The translations under genes and the position numbers were made by a program. The notes under the pieces were generated by a model. It was not told the origin of the DNA. It ran no database searches and saw only the letters and a list, made by a program, of their open reading frames with translations. From Anaerolineales bacterium (GTDB lineage Bacteria; Chloroflexota; Anaerolineae; Anaerolineales; Villigracilaceae), in contig JALHUM010000211.1 of the NCBI GenBank assembly GCA_022865905.1, forward strand, positions 1 to 41,921: a stretch of 41,921 nucleotides of DNA, read 5' to 3'. Shown here piece after piece: positions 5,038 to 31,415 of the stretch (positions are counted from its first letter, which is position 1; each line of letters begins with the position of its first letter).

Positions 5038-7476
5038 ATGTCTCCCCTACTGAACATTGATCACTGTTCACTGAAAACTATCAGGGTAGGCTGCCCGGCC
5101 CATAACTGCGGCGGACGCTGCCTGCTCATCGCCCATGTTGAAAATGGGCGCATCACCCGCCTGGATACCGACGACCGCCCCGACAGCCTGGCCGCGCCGC
5201 AACTGCGCGCCTGCGTGCGCGGACGCGCCTATCTGCGCCGCCAGTATCATCCCGACCGACTGCTGCATCCGCTGAAACGAGTCGGCGGGCGCGGCGAAGG
5301 CAAATTCGTCCAGATTTCGTGGGAGGAAGCGCTCGATACAGTCGCCGCGCAAATGCAGCGGGTCAAGCAACAATACGGCAACTCGGCCATGTTCGTCCCT
5401 TACGGCACAGGCAGCTACAACCAGCTCAACGGCTCACATATCGCCCGACGGCTGATGAACCTGTTCGGCGGCTGCCTGGGCATCTACAACTCCTACTCGT
5501 GGGCCGCCATCAACGCCGCCACGCCAACCGTCTACGGCACACTGGTCACCGGCAACCAACGCCAGGACTGGCTCAATAGCCGCTACATCATCATGTGGGG
5601 CTGGAACCCGGCCGAGATGCGGGACGGTACGAACAGCGATTACTTCGTCAAGCTGGCGCGCCACGCCTCCGGCAGTGGGGCGCGCGTGGTGTGCATTGAC
5701 CCGCGCCACTCGCTCTCCGCTGCTGCCCTGGCCGACGAGTGGATCCCCATCCGCCCCGGCACAGACACGGCCATGATGAGCGCCATGGCTTACGTGATGA
5801 TCGCCGAGCGGCTCTACGACGCAGAATTCGTGCGCACCCACTGCGTGGGGTTCGACGCCAGCCAGATGCCGGCTGGGAGCGAGGGCGAGGAGAGTTACAG
5901 CGATTACATCCTGGGCATGCGCGATGGCATCCCCAAGACTCCCGCATGGGCGGAAGTCATTACTGCCGTCCCCGCTGAGACAATTGCCCGCATCGCCCGC
6001 GAATATGCCACGATCAAGCCCGGCATGCTCTACCAGGGTTACGGGATGCAGCGCCGCGCCTACGGCGAGCAGGTGGTGCGCGCTGGCTGTGTGTTGGCAG
6101 CCATCACTGGCAACGTTGGCATCCCTGGAGGCTGGGCGAGTGGGTTGGGACTGCAAGCCCCGGACGGTGGCCCGCAGTGGACTGTCTTCCCGGCCGGAGA
6201 GAATCCGATCAAAGCGGCCATCCCGGTCTTTCTCTGGACCGAGGCCATTTTGCGCGGAAAAGCGATGACCCAGACTGACGGTTTGCTCGGCGCCGAGCGG
6301 CTCGATAACGACATCAAGCTCATCTATGCCGTGGCGACGAACTGTCTCATCAATCAGCACGCGGACGTTAATCACTCTGCTGAAATCCTGCGCGACGAGA
6401 GCAAAGTCGAGTTTCTAGTCGTGCAGGATAACTTCCTGACCCCCACCGCCTGCTTTGCTGACATCATCCTACCCGCCTGCACACAATTCGAAACCTGGGG
6501 CGTGGAGGACGGCTGGAAGTATGGCGATGAAATCATTTTGCAGCCCAAGTTGGTCGAACCGCCGGGCGAGTGCAAGAGCGATTACCGCATCTGCGCTGAA
6601 CTCGCCGAGCGTTTGGGCATCGGCGACACATACACCGAAGGACGTGACGAGCGCGCCTGGGTGGAGTGGTGCCTTGACCGTTTCCGCGAAACGCGCTTCC
6701 CGGATCTGCCCACGCTGGAGGAATTCATCGAAAAGAACCTGGGCGTGTACGCCAACCCGGTGACGAAACCGGCCATCGCCTTTGCCAATTTCCGCGCTGA
6801 CCCGGGGAAGCACCCGCTCGATACGCCCAGCGGCAAGATCGAGGTTTTCTCGAAGCAACTCTTCAAGCTGAACAACCCCGAAGAGATTCCCCCAATCCCG
6901 AAATACATTCAGGAATGGGAGAGTCCTTTCCCATATCATTGCGAGGAGGGTCGAGTAGGCAGCGCTCTTCCGCCGTATCGAGACCCAACGAAGCGGTCCT
7001 CCGTTAAACGGGATACACCAACACCCGAGGAGATTGCTTCGGGCACACCTGCCCTGGCGGGCGGTGCCAGGGAAGAACGCCCTCGCAATGACACATACCC
7101 ATTACAAGCCGTCGGACACCACAACCTCGCCCGCGTCCATTCCACCCATGCCAACAACGACTGGCTGGAAGAAGCTTTTCCTCAACGAGTCTTCATCAAC
7201 CCGATTGATGCGGATGCACGTGGCATAAAAGATGGTGAGGAGGTCAAGGTTTTCAACGCGCGCGGCGCTCTGGTGCTGCCTTGCCGCGTCACGCCGCGCA
7301 TCATGCCCGGCGTGGTGGACATCCCGCAAGGGGCGTGGTGGTCACCGGATGAAAATGGCGTGGATCACGGCGGGAACGTCAATGTGCTCACCTCGCAGCG
7401 TTGGACACCGTTCGCTTTCGGCACCGCGCAGCATACGATCATGGTTCAAGTTACCAAACAGGATGGACAGGATTGA
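5038..7476 (+). CDS. DmsA-like molybdopterin oxidoreductase catalytic subunit
   Basis: The 812-residue protein belongs to the DMSO reductase family and is closest by eye to DmsA. The N-terminus carries a [4Fe-4S] site: Cys19, Cys24, Cys28 and Cys59 (CPAHNCGGRC and RACVRGRAY). Mo-bis-MGD signatures follow: GIYNSYSWAA (Ser154 is in the place of the DmsA molybdenum-ligand serine), WGWNPAEMRDG, GYGMQRRAYGEQ, and a C-terminal dinucleotide-binding domain (VKVFNARGALVLP). There is no Tat twin-arginine signal and no upstream in-frame start that would add one, so it should stay in the cytoplasm. Between Tyr633 and Pro688 sits a 54-codon stretch foreign to the family, encoded by a palindromic repeat. 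The C-terminal KQDGQD and stop lie in another repeat arm. It is followed after 52 bp by a DmsB-DmsC fusion. The substrate is undetermined. Confidence 0.88.
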   Translation: MSPLLNIDHCSLKTIRVGCPAHNCGGRCLLIAHVENGRITRLDTDDRPDSLAAPQLRACVRGRAYLRRQYHPDRLLHPLKRVGGRGEGKFVQISWEEALDTVAAQMQRVKQQYGNSAMFVPYGTGSYNQLNGSHIARRLMNLFGGCLGIYNSYSWAAINAATPTVYGTLVTGNQRQDWLNSRYIIMWGWNPAEMRDGTNSDYFVKLARHASGSGARVVCIDPRHSLSAAALADEWIPIRPGTDTAMMSAMAYVMIAERLYDAEFVRTHCVGFDASQMPAGSEGEESYSDYILGMRDGIPKTPAWAEVITAVPAETIARIAREYATIKPGMLYQGYGMQRRAYGEQVVRAGCVLAAITGNVGIPGGWASGLGLQAPDGGPQWTVFPAGENPIKAAIPVFLWTEAILRGKAMTQTDGLLGAERLDNDIKLIYAVATNCLINQHADVNHSAEILRDESKVEFLVVQDNFLTPTACFADIILPACTQFETWGVEDGWKYGDEIILQPKLVEPPGECKSDYRICAELAERLGIGDTYTEGRDERAWVEWCLDRFRETRFPDLPTLEEFIEKNLGVYANPVTKPAIAFANFRADPGKHPLDTPSGKIEVFSKQLFKLNNPEEIPPIPKYIQEWESPFPYHCEEGRVGSALPPYRDPTKRSSVKRDTPTPEEIASGTPALAGGAREERPRNDTYPLQAVGHHNLARVHSTHANNDWLEEAFPQRVFINPIDADARGIKDGEEVKVFNARGALVLPCRVTPRIMPGVVDIPQGAWWSPDENGVDHGGNVNVLTSQRWTPFAFGTAQHTIMVQVTKQDGQD
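6936..7095. repeat. Palindromic (MITE-like) element inserted in frame in the dmsA-like gene
   Basis: Terminal inverted repeats TCATTGCGAGG (6936-6946) and CCTCGCAATGA (7081-7091) are exact inverses. The element is bounded by TA at 6934-6935 and TA at 7096-7097, compatible with a TA target duplication. Internal pieces such as GGAGATTGCTTCGGG and CGAAGCGG match dispersed 'CATTGCGAGG...GATTGCTTCG' intergenic palindromes familiar from Chloroflexota and other bacteria. Element plus one TA equals 162 bp, exactly 54 codons, without any stop in the host frame. Removing it would rejoin ...SPFPY to PLQAVGHH, the expected DmsA-like continuation. Confidence 0.75.
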
Positions 7477-7528: not shown

Positions 7529-8971
7529 ATGACCTACGCTTTCTACTTTGACTCCACGTACTGCACCGGCTGCAAAGCCTGCCAGGTGGCCTGCAAAGAT
7601 AAGAACCACCTGCCGCTCGGCGTGTTGTGGCGGCGCGTGTATGAGATCAGCGGCGGCGGATGGGAACGGCAGGGCGAAGCGTGGATAACGGATGTATTCG
7701 CCTACAACCTGACCCTCGCCTGCAATCACTGCGAGCATCCCGTTTGCGCCGGGGTTTGCCCCACGCAGGCCTACTCGAAGCGGGAAGACGGCCTAGTGCT
7801 GCTCGACACGGCCAAATGCATCGGCTGCCAGTACTGCGCCTGGGCGTGTCCTTACGGCGCGCCGCAATACAACCCAGACGCCGGTCACATGACCAAGTGC
7901 AACTTCTGCGAAGACAGCCTCGAGGCCGGCCAGCCGCCGGCTTGCGTGGCCGCCTGTCCCATGCGCACGCTCGACTTCGGCCAGCGCGCCGACCTGGAAG
8001 CGCGACCGGATGTGCTGCCCGCAGTCTACCCGATGTCCCAAACGGCATCGCGGGACCCAAATATCCTGATCAAGCCGCACCGGGCGGCGGAACGGGCAAT
8101 GCAAGAAAGCACAGAAATAGCAAACCGAGAAGAGGTTGCACCACGCAAAGCGCAAAGGCTGGAAGAAGCCCCCCTCGTCGCCTTCACGCTCCTGGCGCAG
8201 ATGGCGATTGGCGCGTTCTGGGCTGCGGCGATGATCTTGTTCGGCCTGCCAGACCATTACTTGGGAGAACGGATCACCTTCGATCCAATGCTGGCAGTCG
8301 GCAGCCTCATCGCGATCGCACTGGCGACCTCATTATTCCACCTGGGCGCGCCCAAGAATGCCTGGCGGGTACTGGCGCACCTGCGCAAGTCGTGGTTGAG
8401 CCGCGAGATTCTATTCATGCTGGCATTCGCGGGATCATGGCTAATGACGTTGTCCTCGTGGAGGCCGCCGTATGATGACATCATCTCGAACACGCTGTTC
8501 CTGCGCAATGCGCTGGTGGTCATCACTGCGCTGACCGGCGCGGCGGGCATCTACAGCCTGGCGCGCGTCTATCGCTTGAAGACCGTCCCGGCCTGGTGCA
8601 ATTGGCGGATAATGGCCGGCTTTTTCGTCACGGCCATCCTGCTGGGGCAACTGTTGGCGGCTTCTTTCCTGGCAGCGGACGTGCTGCGGGGATCGCCTGT
8701 CGCTTCCTATGCAGCGCTGCTTGCGCAAACGGGAGTTAGCCTGGTCTTGCTTTTCGGCATCCAATTCTGGCTGGTAATTTCCGGCGGGCAATCAGCTGAC
8801 GTTACAGTACACAGGCTGAGGTTGGGTCTGATAGGGGCCGGGATGCTGGGGGCAGTCGCCATGTCCATCGCAGTGGAAAAGGCCGGGGCGTGGATCACGT
8901 TCCCGATTTTCCTAGTTATTTTAGTTGAAGAAATCATGGGACGCTGGCTATTCTACCGATTGCGCCAATGA
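7529..8971 (+). CDS. Fused DmsB-DmsC: four-cluster ferredoxin subunit joined to quinol-oxidising membrane anchor
   Basis: Residues 1-170 are a DmsB-type iron-sulfur subunit with four cysteine groups for four [4Fe-4S] clusters: CTGCKACQVACK, CNHCEHPVCAGVC, CIGCQYCAWACPYG and CNFCEDS...CVAACPMRTL. After a charged linker at about 175-210, residues 212-478 form a DmsC (NrfD-like) anchor with about eight membrane helices, starting at FTLLAQMAIGAFW. The usual separate subunits are therefore a single 480-residue chain. It passes electrons between the quinone pool and the molybdenum subunit encoded upstream. Since the catalytic subunit lacks a Tat signal, the complex probably faces the cytoplasm. No clear Shine-Dalgarno site is seen; the start is preceded by the repeat hairpin. 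Confidence 0.9.
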   Translation: MTYAFYFDSTYCTGCKACQVACKDKNHLPLGVLWRRVYEISGGGWERQGEAWITDVFAYNLTLACNHCEHPVCAGVCPTQAYSKREDGLVLLDTAKCIGCQYCAWACPYGAPQYNPDAGHMTKCNFCEDSLEAGQPPACVAACPMRTLDFGQRADLEARPDVLPAVYPMSQTASRDPNILIKPHRAAERAMQESTEIANREEVAPRKAQRLEEAPLVAFTLLAQMAIGAFWAAAMILFGLPDHYLGERITFDPMLAVGSLIAIALATSLFHLGAPKNAWRVLAHLRKSWLSREILFMLAFAGSWLMTLSSWRPPYDDIISNTLFLRNALVVITALTGAAGIYSLARVYRLKTVPAWCNWRIMAGFFVTAILLGQLLAASFLAADVLRGSPVASYAALLAQTGVSLVLLFGIQFWLVISGGQSADVTVHRLRLGLIGAGMLGAVAMSIAVEKAGAWITFPIFLVILVEEIMGRWLFYRLRQ

Positions 8972-29137: not shown

Positions 29138-30150
29138 ACACCTGGGTTTACGTTGACCACTTCAAAGGCACGGCTCTCCCCGCTTCGTGGGAGGCCATCG
29201 GCGTCGGCAAGACGCTCGGAACGGTCAAAGCGCTGGTATTCGGACAAGGCGTGGAAGCGCTGGCGAAAACAGCATTCGAGTACGGTGCGGACGAAGTACT
29301 GCTGGCGGATGATCCCGCCCTGGCTGATTACCGCGCTGAGGCCTTTGCCGCCACCCTGGGCAAACTCGCAGCGGACGGGGCTCCAGACCTGCTCCTGTTC
29401 CCGACCACGACACGCGGCCGTGAGTTGGCCGCCATGGCCGCCATTGACCTGAAGACCGGCGTGATGGTGGACGTAACTGCTTTAGAAGCCGCGGACGGGA
29501 AGATCACCGTCACGAGGCCGATCTACGCCGGGAAACTGCTGACCAAGGAGACTTGCTCGTCCAAGCCGCAGATCAATACCCTGCGCGGGCGCGCCTTCCC
29601 GAAACCGGCGCAGCAGGCTGGCAAATCTGGCACGCTGACAAAAGTGGCTGCCGCAACCGGCGACTTCCCGACCAAAGTCGAGGGCTACACCACCAGCGAA
29701 GGCGGCGTCAGCCTGACGGATGCAGGTGTGATCGTCTCCGGCGGGCGCGGCGTGAGCAACAACCCTGCCCTGACGCCACCGTCCGGTCTCGACGAAAAGC
29801 AAGCCGAGATCTGGAAGGCGCAGCAGGGCTTCGCGTTGGTCAAGGAACTGGCCTCGGTGTTGGGCGCAGCCGTCGGCGCAAGCCGCGCGGCAGTAGATGC
29901 AGGCTACGTCCCTTACCCCAACCAGGTCGGGCAGACCGGCAAGGTCGTCTCGCCGGACGTGTACATCGCATGCGGTATTTCGGGTGCCATCCAGCACCTG
30001 GCCGGGATGCGCACCAGCAAGGTGATAGTCGCCATCAACAAGGATGCCGAAGCGCCGATCTTCAAACTGGCGCGCTACGGCGTGGTTGGCGATTTGTTCC
30101 AAATCCTGCCCGCGCTGACCGCGGCGTTCAAGAAGAAATTGGGAAAGTAA
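29134..30150 (+). CDS. etfA: Electron transfer flavoprotein alpha subunit
   Basis: The 338-residue protein has the EtfA N-terminal domain ([52 protein letters not shown]) and the C-terminal FAD domain: [66 protein letters not shown] and [22 protein letters not shown]. It forms the FAD-carrying half of the EtfAB dimer. ATGA overlap with etfB couples their translation. A perfect 18-bp palindrome directly after its stop probably marks the transcript end. Confidence 0.94.
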
Positions 30151-30153
30151 TAT

Positions 30154-30190
30154 TAAGATACCAGGTTTCTTAAAGAAACCTGGTATCTTA
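30154..30190. repeat. Perfect 18-bp palindrome after etfA, next to a RAYT gene fragment
   Basis: The arms 30154-30171 and 30173-30190 are exact inverses around one base; each contains GATACCAGGTTTCTT. It can act as a terminator or message-end hairpin for the etf genes. Since a REP-associated tyrosine transposase fragment begins 16 bp later, it is also a candidate REP-type substrate of that family; this is inference. Confidence 0.75.
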
Positions 30191-30205
30191 TTCTCACTAT
30201 TAGCA

Positions 30206-30487
30206 ATGCCTCACCGCATCACTCCCTTCTTTGCCGGTGGCTATTATCATATTTTCAGTCGCGGCAACAATCGCCAGCCGATTTTCTATGAACGCGAAAA
30301 CTATTGTTACTTCCTGCGACAGTTACGAAATTATTTCGCTCCGGATAAGGTGGAAATCGTTGCTTACTGCCTGATGCCCAATCATTATCACCTGCTTGCC
30401 CACCTCATCACCGACAGTCTTGCCCCCCTTATGCAACCACTTGCCCTATCTTATGCCAAAGCCATCAATAAAAGAAGTAGTGGTTAA
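30206..30487 (+). pseudogene. REP-associated tyrosine transposase (RAYT, Y1_Tnp) fragment cut by an IS1-family element
   Basis: The surviving 93 codons match the RAYT N-terminus: ITPFFAGGYYHIFSRGNNRQPIF, ENYCYFLRQL and the HUH motif in YCLMPNHYHLLAHL, then LMQPLALSYAKAINKR. Full-length relatives run on through the nucleophile tyrosine region for at least another 60-100 residues. The reading ends in the first bases of the IS inverted repeat, which supplies the TAA. No continuation is found beyond the IS, so the 3' part has been deleted and the gene should be dead. Confidence 0.85.
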
Positions 30488-30516
30488 ATCGCAAGTGATA
30501 TGATAGATTTAGCGGC

Positions 30517-30798
30517 ATGATACAGAAAACAATCACCTACGAATGCCGCCATTGTCGCAGCACCAACATCGTCAAAAATGGGCATAATGCTCAAGGTCAG
30601 CAACAATATTGGTGCAAGGATTGTGGTAAACGGGCTGTTCTGGAACTGATGCCGCGCTATACCGAAGAAAAGAAGGAACAGATTATTGCAGATTACTATG
30701 AGCGCCCCAGTATGCGCGGGGTCGAGCGTGTTTTTGGCGTGATCCGCTTCACCTTGGCTGCTTGGCTCAAAAAAAAGGCGACACCAGCCCATCAGTAA
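30517..30798 (+). CDS. insA: IS1-family InsA (zinc-ribbon/HTH DNA-binding protein)
   Basis: The 93-residue frame encodes a zinc ribbon (YECRHCRSTNIVKNG and YWCKDCGKRAV) and a helix-turn-helix (MRGVERVFGVIRFTLAAWLKKK), as in InsA, which binds the IS ends and represses the element. Near its end lies A8 (30769-30776), read as KKK, where ribosomes can slip back one base into the InsB frame to give the InsAB transposase. Confidence 0.88.
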   Translation: MIQKTITYECRHCRSTNIVKNGHNAQGQQQYWCKDCGKRAVLELMPRYTEEKKEQIIADYYERPSMRGVERVFGVIRFTLAAWLKKKATPAHQ

Positions 30799-31244
30799 AG
30801 GATACGTTACTGCCTGTACAGCCAGACGATAGGCTGGAACTGGACGAAATATGGTCATTTGTCCTGAAAAAGGTGAACAAACGTTGGCTTTGGATCGCCA
30901 TTTGTCGTCGTACACGCCAGGTTGTGGCGTTTGTGATCGGGGACCGTAGCGAAAAGGATTGCCGCAAACTGTGGGATCGCATCCCCGAAGAGTACAAACA
31001 GTGCTGTACCTTCAGCGACTTTTGGGAGGCCTACGAGAAGGTGTTTCCCAAAGAGACTCATCGCAGTGCCGGCAAGGAGAGTGGTGAAACCAACCATGTG
31101 GAACGGTGGAACAATACCTGCCGCCAATCGAACGCACGCTACGTTCGTAAGACCTTATCGTTTTCAAAGTCCGATTTCTACCACGAACTGGTTACACGAC
31201 TGTATATCGTCCGTTACAACCTCAAATTATCACTTGCGATTTAA
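30762..31244 (+). CDS. insB: IS1-family InsB' frame (DDE transposase domain)
   Basis: This frame is -1 relative to insA and overlaps it by 37 bp around the A8 slippery run, so it is expected to be made as an InsAB fusion rather than from its own start. Catalytic motifs are LELDEIWSFV (first Asp), TFSDFWEAY (second Asp) and NHVERWNNTCRQ (Glu), with the usual IS1 ending RKTLSFSKS. Both frames are uninterrupted, so the element may still be active. Confidence 0.87.
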   Translation: MAQKKGDTSPSVKDTLLPVQPDDRLELDEIWSFVLKKVNKRWLWIAICRRTRQVVAFVIGDRSEKDCRKLWDRIPEEYKQCCTFSDFWEAYEKVFPKETHRSAGKESGETNHVERWNNTCRQSNARYVRKTLSFSKSDFYHELVTRLYIVRYNLKLSLAI

Positions 31245-31246
31245 CC

Positions 31247-31415
31247 ACTACCGGTAATTGAAGCCCTGGAAAAAGCTGGTATCCGCGAGTCGGTAAAAGT
31301 CATGGTCGGCGGTGCGCCGGTGACTCATGACTGGGTGCAAAAGATCGGCGCAGATGTTTACAGCGAGGATGCCATCGGCGCGGTCGAGGTCGCCAGGCAC
31401 GTTCTAGGTTTGTGA
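31247..31415 (+). pseudogene. C-terminal remnant of a corrinoid (B12-binding) methyltransferase protein, MttC/MtbC type
   Basis: Directly after the IS, an open frame without a start reads VIEALEKAGIRESVKVMVGG, then APVTHDWVQKIGADVYSEDA and ends in ARHVLGL with TGA at 31413-31415. GGAPVT...IGAD...DA is the end of the cobalamin-binding domain of MtaC/MtbC/MttC-type proteins. Only about 55 of the usual 210 or so residues are left; the DxHxxG cobalamin-binding motif and the N-terminal cap are gone. Its place 67 bp before an MttB-family gene indicates a former mttC-mttB pair. Confidence 0.8.

Follow-up and report, generated by a model that had tools for sequence, protein, structure and literature searches.

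A palindromic repeat in frame within a dmsA-type gene of Chloroflexota, at a linker probably re-filled by unrelated repeats in orthologous genes

Short palindromic repeats that are read in frame as part of proteins are already known in bacteria. Rickettsia palindromic elements (RPEs), which form coding palindromes in Rickettsia genes, are reviewed in PMC10969869, with citation of Ogata 2000 and 2002. A CGTC-tagged superfamily, including RPE-4 and RPE-6 of R. conorii, dRS3 of Neisseria, and repeats of Wolbachia, has been reported from five phyla, Chloroflexi not included (PMC3733652). The same study described intragenic copies of both CGTC and GTAG repeats and suggested that they occupy flexible linkers or loops. 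It identified no transposase for the CGTC repeats. With RPEs and the CGTC and GTAG repeats, protein-coding palindromes as such are therefore not new. In-frame palindromes have been described mainly from an obligate intracellular genus, whereas the examples reported here come from free-living Chloroflexota and from both catabolic and biosynthetic enzymes.

The stretch of DNA analysed here (the window) comprises 41,921 nucleotides from an Anaerolineales bacterium, whose genome (G000) is represented by 3.17 Mb in 359 contigs. An original prediction, made from the letters of the window, had proposed that a Rickettsia-like palindrome lies in a tolerant linker of a molybdoenzyme. This idea is supported by our analysis, but the story of a single element is not, as the orthologous genes carry unrelated repeats and the copy in the window is composite. 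Very probably, a copy of a repeat family that we call F1 entered the linker of dmsA and survived in frame, and the loop is a shared landing site that has been re-filled by unrelated repeats. The features of the locus are as follows.

5038..7476, plus strand: gene for the catalytic subunit (812 aa) of a DMSO/selenate-reductase-type molybdoenzyme, its frame open through the insert
6934..7093, plus strand: F1 composite palindrome, 160 bp, coding for residues ~633-685, predicted to be disordered
6934..6946, plus strand: left terminal repeat TATCATTGCGAGG, with the tag TGTC mutated to TATC
6948..6986, plus strand: nested hairpin of the left half-unit, GGGTCGAGTAGGC...CCGTATCGAGACCC, which is repeat family F6
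6987..7002, plus strand: degenerate inner arm AACGAAGCGGTCCTCC (family form CGACGAAGCAATCTCC)
7029..7044, plus strand: inner arm GGAGATTGCTTCGGGC
7048..7072, plus strand: nested hairpin of the right half-unit, CCTGCCCTGGCGGGCGGTGCCAGGG, of a family also found inside other F1 copies
7081..7093, plus strand: right terminal repeat CCTCGCAATGACA, with the minus-strand TGTC tag intact (12-mer match, C142:7082-7093)
7529..8971, plus strand: partner gene for a fused DmsB-like Fe-S and DmsC-like membrane anchor subunit (PF13247, PF04976)

The host was correctly recognized as a DmsA-like catalytic subunit: in a profile search, the protein scored 857.9 bits against TIGR02166 (cut-off 777.7), and it contains the Pfam domains PF00384, PF01568, and PF04879. 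The insertion is also in frame and free of host-frame stops, as had been proposed, the open reading frame at 5038-7476 (812 codons) running without interruption across 6934-7093. The F1 segment lies just ahead of the molydopterin-binding domain (PF01568), which starts at residue 692, and this agrees with the predicted position in the linker before the last domain. Solved relatives align with the host protein up to about residue 625 and resume at about residue 686, and the extra segment is located exactly in between. In an AlphaFold2 model (pTM 0.80), residues 626-683 have no secondary structure and a pLDDT below 50 (24-31 for the insert), a low value that is partly expected because the segment is thinly covered in the alignment. 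The remainder of the modelled fold resembles DMSO reductases (TM 0.76, E 2e-53). The F1-derived segment is thereby predicted to be a disordered loop, and the molybdenum enzyme seems to gain an additional floppy loop by translation of the F1 copy.

The element had been described as 160 bp long with exact 11-bp terminal inverted repeats. Both the perfect repeat, TCATTGCGAGG (6936-6946) and CCTCGCAATGA (7081-7091), and the length hold, but the boundaries had to be redrawn: because the F1 family ends with TGTC...GACA, the copy is best drawn at 6934-7093, TATCATTGCGAGG...CCTCGCAATGACA, which is likewise 160 bp. A BLAST search of G000 with these 160 bp gave 32 matches; the exact 11-mer TCATTGCGAGG occurs there in 32 copies and the exact 12-mer end TGTCATTGCGAG in 51, and the reversed control of each occurs in 0. 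The copies read in G000 share a common architecture, TGTCATTGCGAG-(hairpin A)-CGAAGCAATCTCC-loop-GGAGATTGCTTCG-(hairpin B)-CTCGCAATGACA, with TGTCATTGCGAG as the left end and CTCGCAATGACA as the right end. In other words, two half-units of the form TGTC-ATTGCGAG...(variable hairpin)...AAGCAATCTC are joined head to head, and such ATTGC...GCAAT pairs are seen in nearly all complete copies. The TGTC tag is present at 28 of 29 left ends and 20 of 22 right ends, the outer stem is 5 bp, the apical segments are 11-102 bases, and the tail is CTC. Among 52 distinct half-units, the ends are alike and the apices differ. Several apices belong to other repeat families, such as GGTCGAGTAGGC...GTATCGAGACC and CCTGCCCTGGCGGGCTAGGCCAGGG, and the window copy bears both, the F6-type at 6948-6986 and the other at 7048-7072. 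F6 has also been found standing alone. The window copy thus reads as a composite with other repeat families nested inside it.

As a mobile element, the segment should have further copies and should resemble intergenic repeats, and both are the case: dozens of copies were found in the genome, mostly intergenic. Judged from the sequence stretches around the copies, about 3 of some 36 F1 loci in G000 are intragenic, and about 33 of the copies examined appear to be intergenic. Among 150 other genomes of the phylum, the F1 end motif is patchy, ranging from none to 164 copies. A plasmid collection searched with the F1 core gave only partial matches, in Halomonas (6 places) and Methylosinus, and the half-unit motif is therefore not confined to Chloroflexota. 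A literature search for the motif TCATTGCGAG returned, among the matches listed, no title or abstract about a repeat, their subjects resembling primers or unrelated sequence. Six Y1_Tnp matches (Y1-type transposase) were found in G000, none of them adjoining an F1 copy. On these sequence features, F1 can be regarded as a dispersed, non-autonomous palindromic repeat, and its movement would be due to machinery acting in trans.

It should be mentioned that the window also contains, at 30206-30487, the 5' part of a gene resembling REP-associated tyrosine transposases (NF047646, E 7e-10), with a near-perfect 26-bp palindrome directly upstream (30146-30198). This gene is cut by an IS1-family element at 30477-31251, which has 24-bp perfect terminal repeats and encodes its transposase in two overlapping frames. 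Beyond its right end (window to 31416) lies a 3' end that resembles, by eye, a corrinoid-binding protein and not the remainder of the transposase gene; this junction is either a deletion caused by the insertion sequence or an assembly join.

The same linker was then compared in an alignment of 86 rows, which 11 genomes entered via both collections. Inserts of at least 10 residues follow window residue 632 in 18 of the 86 rows, or in 16 of about 83 distinct orthologues when two duplicate rows are removed. Elsewhere in the interior of the protein, there is a single insert of that size (27 aa after residue 417, in L094). At the DNA level, the linker inserts fall into at least five unrelated families, distributed as follows.

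F1: the window, L061, L063, and L091 (in which the tag is CGTC)
F2, GGCTGAGCGAAG...CTTCGACTCCGCTCAG: L062 and L077, and decayed in L064
F3, GACACGGATTACGCGGATTACACGG: L073 and L076
F4, ACCACAGAGACCACAAAG: L070, with a related hairpin in L066
F5, GTAGGGGCGGATCGCGATCCGCCCCTAC: L072
F6, GGTCGAGTAGCC...CGTATCGAGACC: L071, the same family as the left nested hairpin of the window copy

Three further orthologues (L065, L067, and L069) have lengthened linkers with no clear repeat. F3 matches 21 and 20 times in precisely the two genomes whose gene contains it, and 15 times in one other genome. For F1, four genomes gave 52, 55, 50, and 42 matches; for F6 there were 6, and for F2, 5 together with many weaker candidates. 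F4 matches 3 times in its own genome and as many as 15 times elsewhere. These counts indicate that most of the linker inserts are dispersed repeats of their own genomes. All, or nearly all, shuffled versions of the F1, F3, F4, F5, and F6 inserts fold less well than the inserts themselves. The F2 inserts and those of L064, L067, and L069 fold no better than shuffles, and part of the linker length is therefore decayed or ordinary sequence.

In a gene tree built without the insert columns, all of the insert-bearing rows group together in a single clade (SH-aLRT 99), and the family of the insert must have changed at least 12 times. The L061 and L070 proteins are 92% identical, yet they carry F1 and F4, respectively; L071, L072, and L073 are 91-93% identical in the pairs compared, yet they carry F6, F5, and F3. 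Within a family, the inserts are more similar than the third codon positions of their hosts (0.95 versus 0.79 for the F3 inserts of L073 and L076, and 0.81 versus 0.45 for the F2 inserts of L062 and L077), as would be expected if the inserts arrived recently or independently, or if copies underwent conversion. Before the F1 end, the window, L061, and L091 have TTTCC(C)AT-like letters in common at their left junctions, and because of this similarity, one older F1 insertion that was afterwards overwritten by F4 in L070 is plausible.

Repeats of these families are also found in frame in other genes. Two genes of G000 carry F1 in this way, pyrD (L149; PF01180) and a moeA-PBP fusion (L162; PF03453, PF00994, and PF12727). 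Between HPVILG and PIIGVPGYP, the MoeA loop contains F1 in three species; in other species, a congener among them, it contains different repeat-like sequences. The PyrD loop contains F1-like sequence in four species. Sister genomes have F1 in frame in alr (alanine racemase), in genes for a polysaccharide flippase and a UvrD-type helicase, and in one for a YyaL-like protein (named by eye, with no Pfam match), and they have F3 in frame in anmK. The open-reading-frame method that collected these intragenic copies would miss out-of-frame ones in other genes. PSPS(R/G)RGAG segments, derived from another apparent repeat (of the GGGGCTGGGGGTGAGG type), are present in the PyrD of G000 (L149:590-1690) and in the UvrD-type helicase of G112 (L276:2-1774), so one protein can hold repeats of more than one family. 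Two further observations concern gene borders. The F1 end CTCGCAATGACA appears to provide the ATG of a MerR-like regulator gene (L147:239-250, in C103 of G000). In G112 (L272:3-1841, minus strand), a GlpA-like FAD/BFD protein and a second FAD oxidoreductase are separated by an F1 copy and read as one open frame, possibly a gene fusion bridged by F1.

Could the insert be a conventional IS630/Tc1-mariner-like miniature element, duplicating TA and precisely excising? The TA letters that flank the 160 bp and the perfect terminal repeats of the window copy would favour such an element, and the original prediction took the TA for the target site. The TA does not withstand comparison with the rest of the family: across 22 complete F1 copies, the mean target duplication is 0.41 bases versus 0.34 in shuffled pairs (P 0.33), and TA duplication is thereby rejected. 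The left TA is merely the first two bases of the mutated tag (TATC from TGTC), the right one is the start of the Tyr codon in YPLQ, and since the complete copies show no duplication, the flanking TA dinucleotides are coincidental. Nor would excision restore the family sequence, as had been proposed, because deleting 162 bp gives ESPFPYPLQ and insert-free orthologues read ESPFGPEAxxYPLQ; something was lost or replaced when the copy inserted. The CATA...CATA letters, 162 bp apart at the window copy, are a 4-bp coincidence or microhomology. No dmsA orthologue above the limit occurs in three genomes of the same genus (G001-G003; G002 has only a 34% relative), and hence no close empty site was found among them. 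We consider a conventional element of this kind highly improbable. It is equally improbable that the insert is transcribed and then bypassed by ribosomes or spliced out. Translational bypassing of hairpin byp elements occurs in some yeast mitochondria, and the inserts have strong potential for RNA hairpins (z -4.0 for the window copy, and down to z -10 for other linker inserts). Against this, the frame across the linker is open in all 83 scored orthologues (0 broken), including the 16 with an insert, and neither skipping nor splicing would need that. A search of the insert against Rfam, up to E = 1, gave no match to an intron or any other RNA family, and a self-splicing intron is also at odds with a length of only 160 bp and an open frame.

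Another view takes the linker for a normal variable region that evolves slowly, with the match to repeats as a secondary matter, either because the repeats were seeded from genes or because the similarity is convergent. The long linkers without a clear repeat (L065, L067, and L069) agree with this, but the inserts belong to multicopy, mostly intergenic families of the same genomes, and the linker of insert-free relatives in Bacteroidota, Acidobacteriota, and Aminicenantes is short and constant, with length differences of 1 and 2 residues. The greater likeness of same-family inserts than of host third codon positions also argues against it, and we regard this view as very unlikely. Somewhat less remote, and still improbable, is co-option of the insert for a function of the enzyme or mRNA, for example ribosome pausing between domains. 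The inserts lie exactly at the domain boundary, most of them form stable hairpins, and some are more conserved than synonymous sites. The main objections are that many unrelated families and lengths occupy the site, that relatives with intact genes have linkers of 5-10 residues, and that the higher conservation is also explained by recent insertion or by conversion among copies.

We therefore return to the reading that an F1 copy entered the dmsA linker and that the loop has been re-filled by unrelated repeats. The copy would have entered the region of a dmsA-type gene that codes for the loop between the molybdopterin oxidoreductase and the C-terminal molydopterin-binding domains, and would have survived because its net length was a multiple of three, the host frame ran through it without a stop, and about 53 additional disordered residues could be tolerated in the loop. 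In the same loop of orthologous genes, unrelated repeat families would have entered, replaced one another, and decayed, with the frame kept by selection. A protein-friendly design of F1 was rejected: 62 of 138 frames are open, compared with 55.8 in shuffled sequences (P 0.12). As F1 is not specially open, the frame is explained by selection after insertion and not by design. The best-supported mechanism is a neutral filter, in which repeats spread and most genic insertions are purged; an insertion that keeps the frame, brings no stop, and falls within a disordered loop may persist, and the loops that pass the filter may then be filled repeatedly. Here, we infer both the neutrality of the inserts and the order of replacement. 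The nested hairpins suggest that repeats may insert at the apex of a palindrome already in place, and the re-filling would then have the same explanation. We can only tentatively propose, as a possibility that is rather doubtful at present, that repeats insert preferentially into existing hairpins, so that a linker once filled becomes a self-renewing landing site. If this were true, the nested hairpins of F1 and the re-filled loops of DmsA, MoeA, and PyrD would be two outcomes of palindrome-into-palindrome targeting, and these free-living bacteria would have a general route to lengthen and rewrite the loops of housekeeping enzymes.

These natural replicate insertions at one site make loop tolerance and the rate of insert turnover open to direct study, and the same system allows one to ask whether small repeats regularly supply new linker sequence. 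For annotators, linker segments of this kind are derived from repeats and are not conserved domains.

Compared with the systems described so far, F1 shares with the RPEs a dispersed palindromic form of about 100-160 bp, the existence of several families, and in-frame positions in unrelated metabolic genes, where they are apparently tolerated (PMC10969869). It differs in that it belongs to another phylum and is mostly intergenic, and in that several unrelated families occupy the same loop of orthologous genes; its likeness to the RPEs, drawn from architecture, is a lead. Like the CGTC repeats, F1 has a terminal CGTC/TGTC tag, a stem starting with AT, mostly head-to-head dimers, and intragenic copies; unlike them, it has an outer ATTGC/GCAAT stem with a long variable apical hairpin, in place of an 8-9-bp stem and a 4-5-base loop, and its tail is CTC instead of CCA. 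GTAG REPs and their RAYT systems (PMC3733652, PMC2817692) are likewise based on short dispersed palindromes; the insert of L072, GTAGGGGCGGATCGCGATCCGCCCCTAC, opens with GTAG, and Y1 transposase genes occur in these genomes. However, the tag of F1 is TGTC, and no F1-flanked RAYT gene was seen. Enterobacterial RU-1, RU-2, and RU-3 (ERIC-like; PMC2759123) are also small mobile repeats that become parts of proteins, although the sequences and hosts of F1 are different, and our literature search found no report of several families at one orthologous site. What is new here is the F1 family of Chloroflexota with its interchangeable nested hairpins, together with a re-filled loop that is common to orthologous genes.
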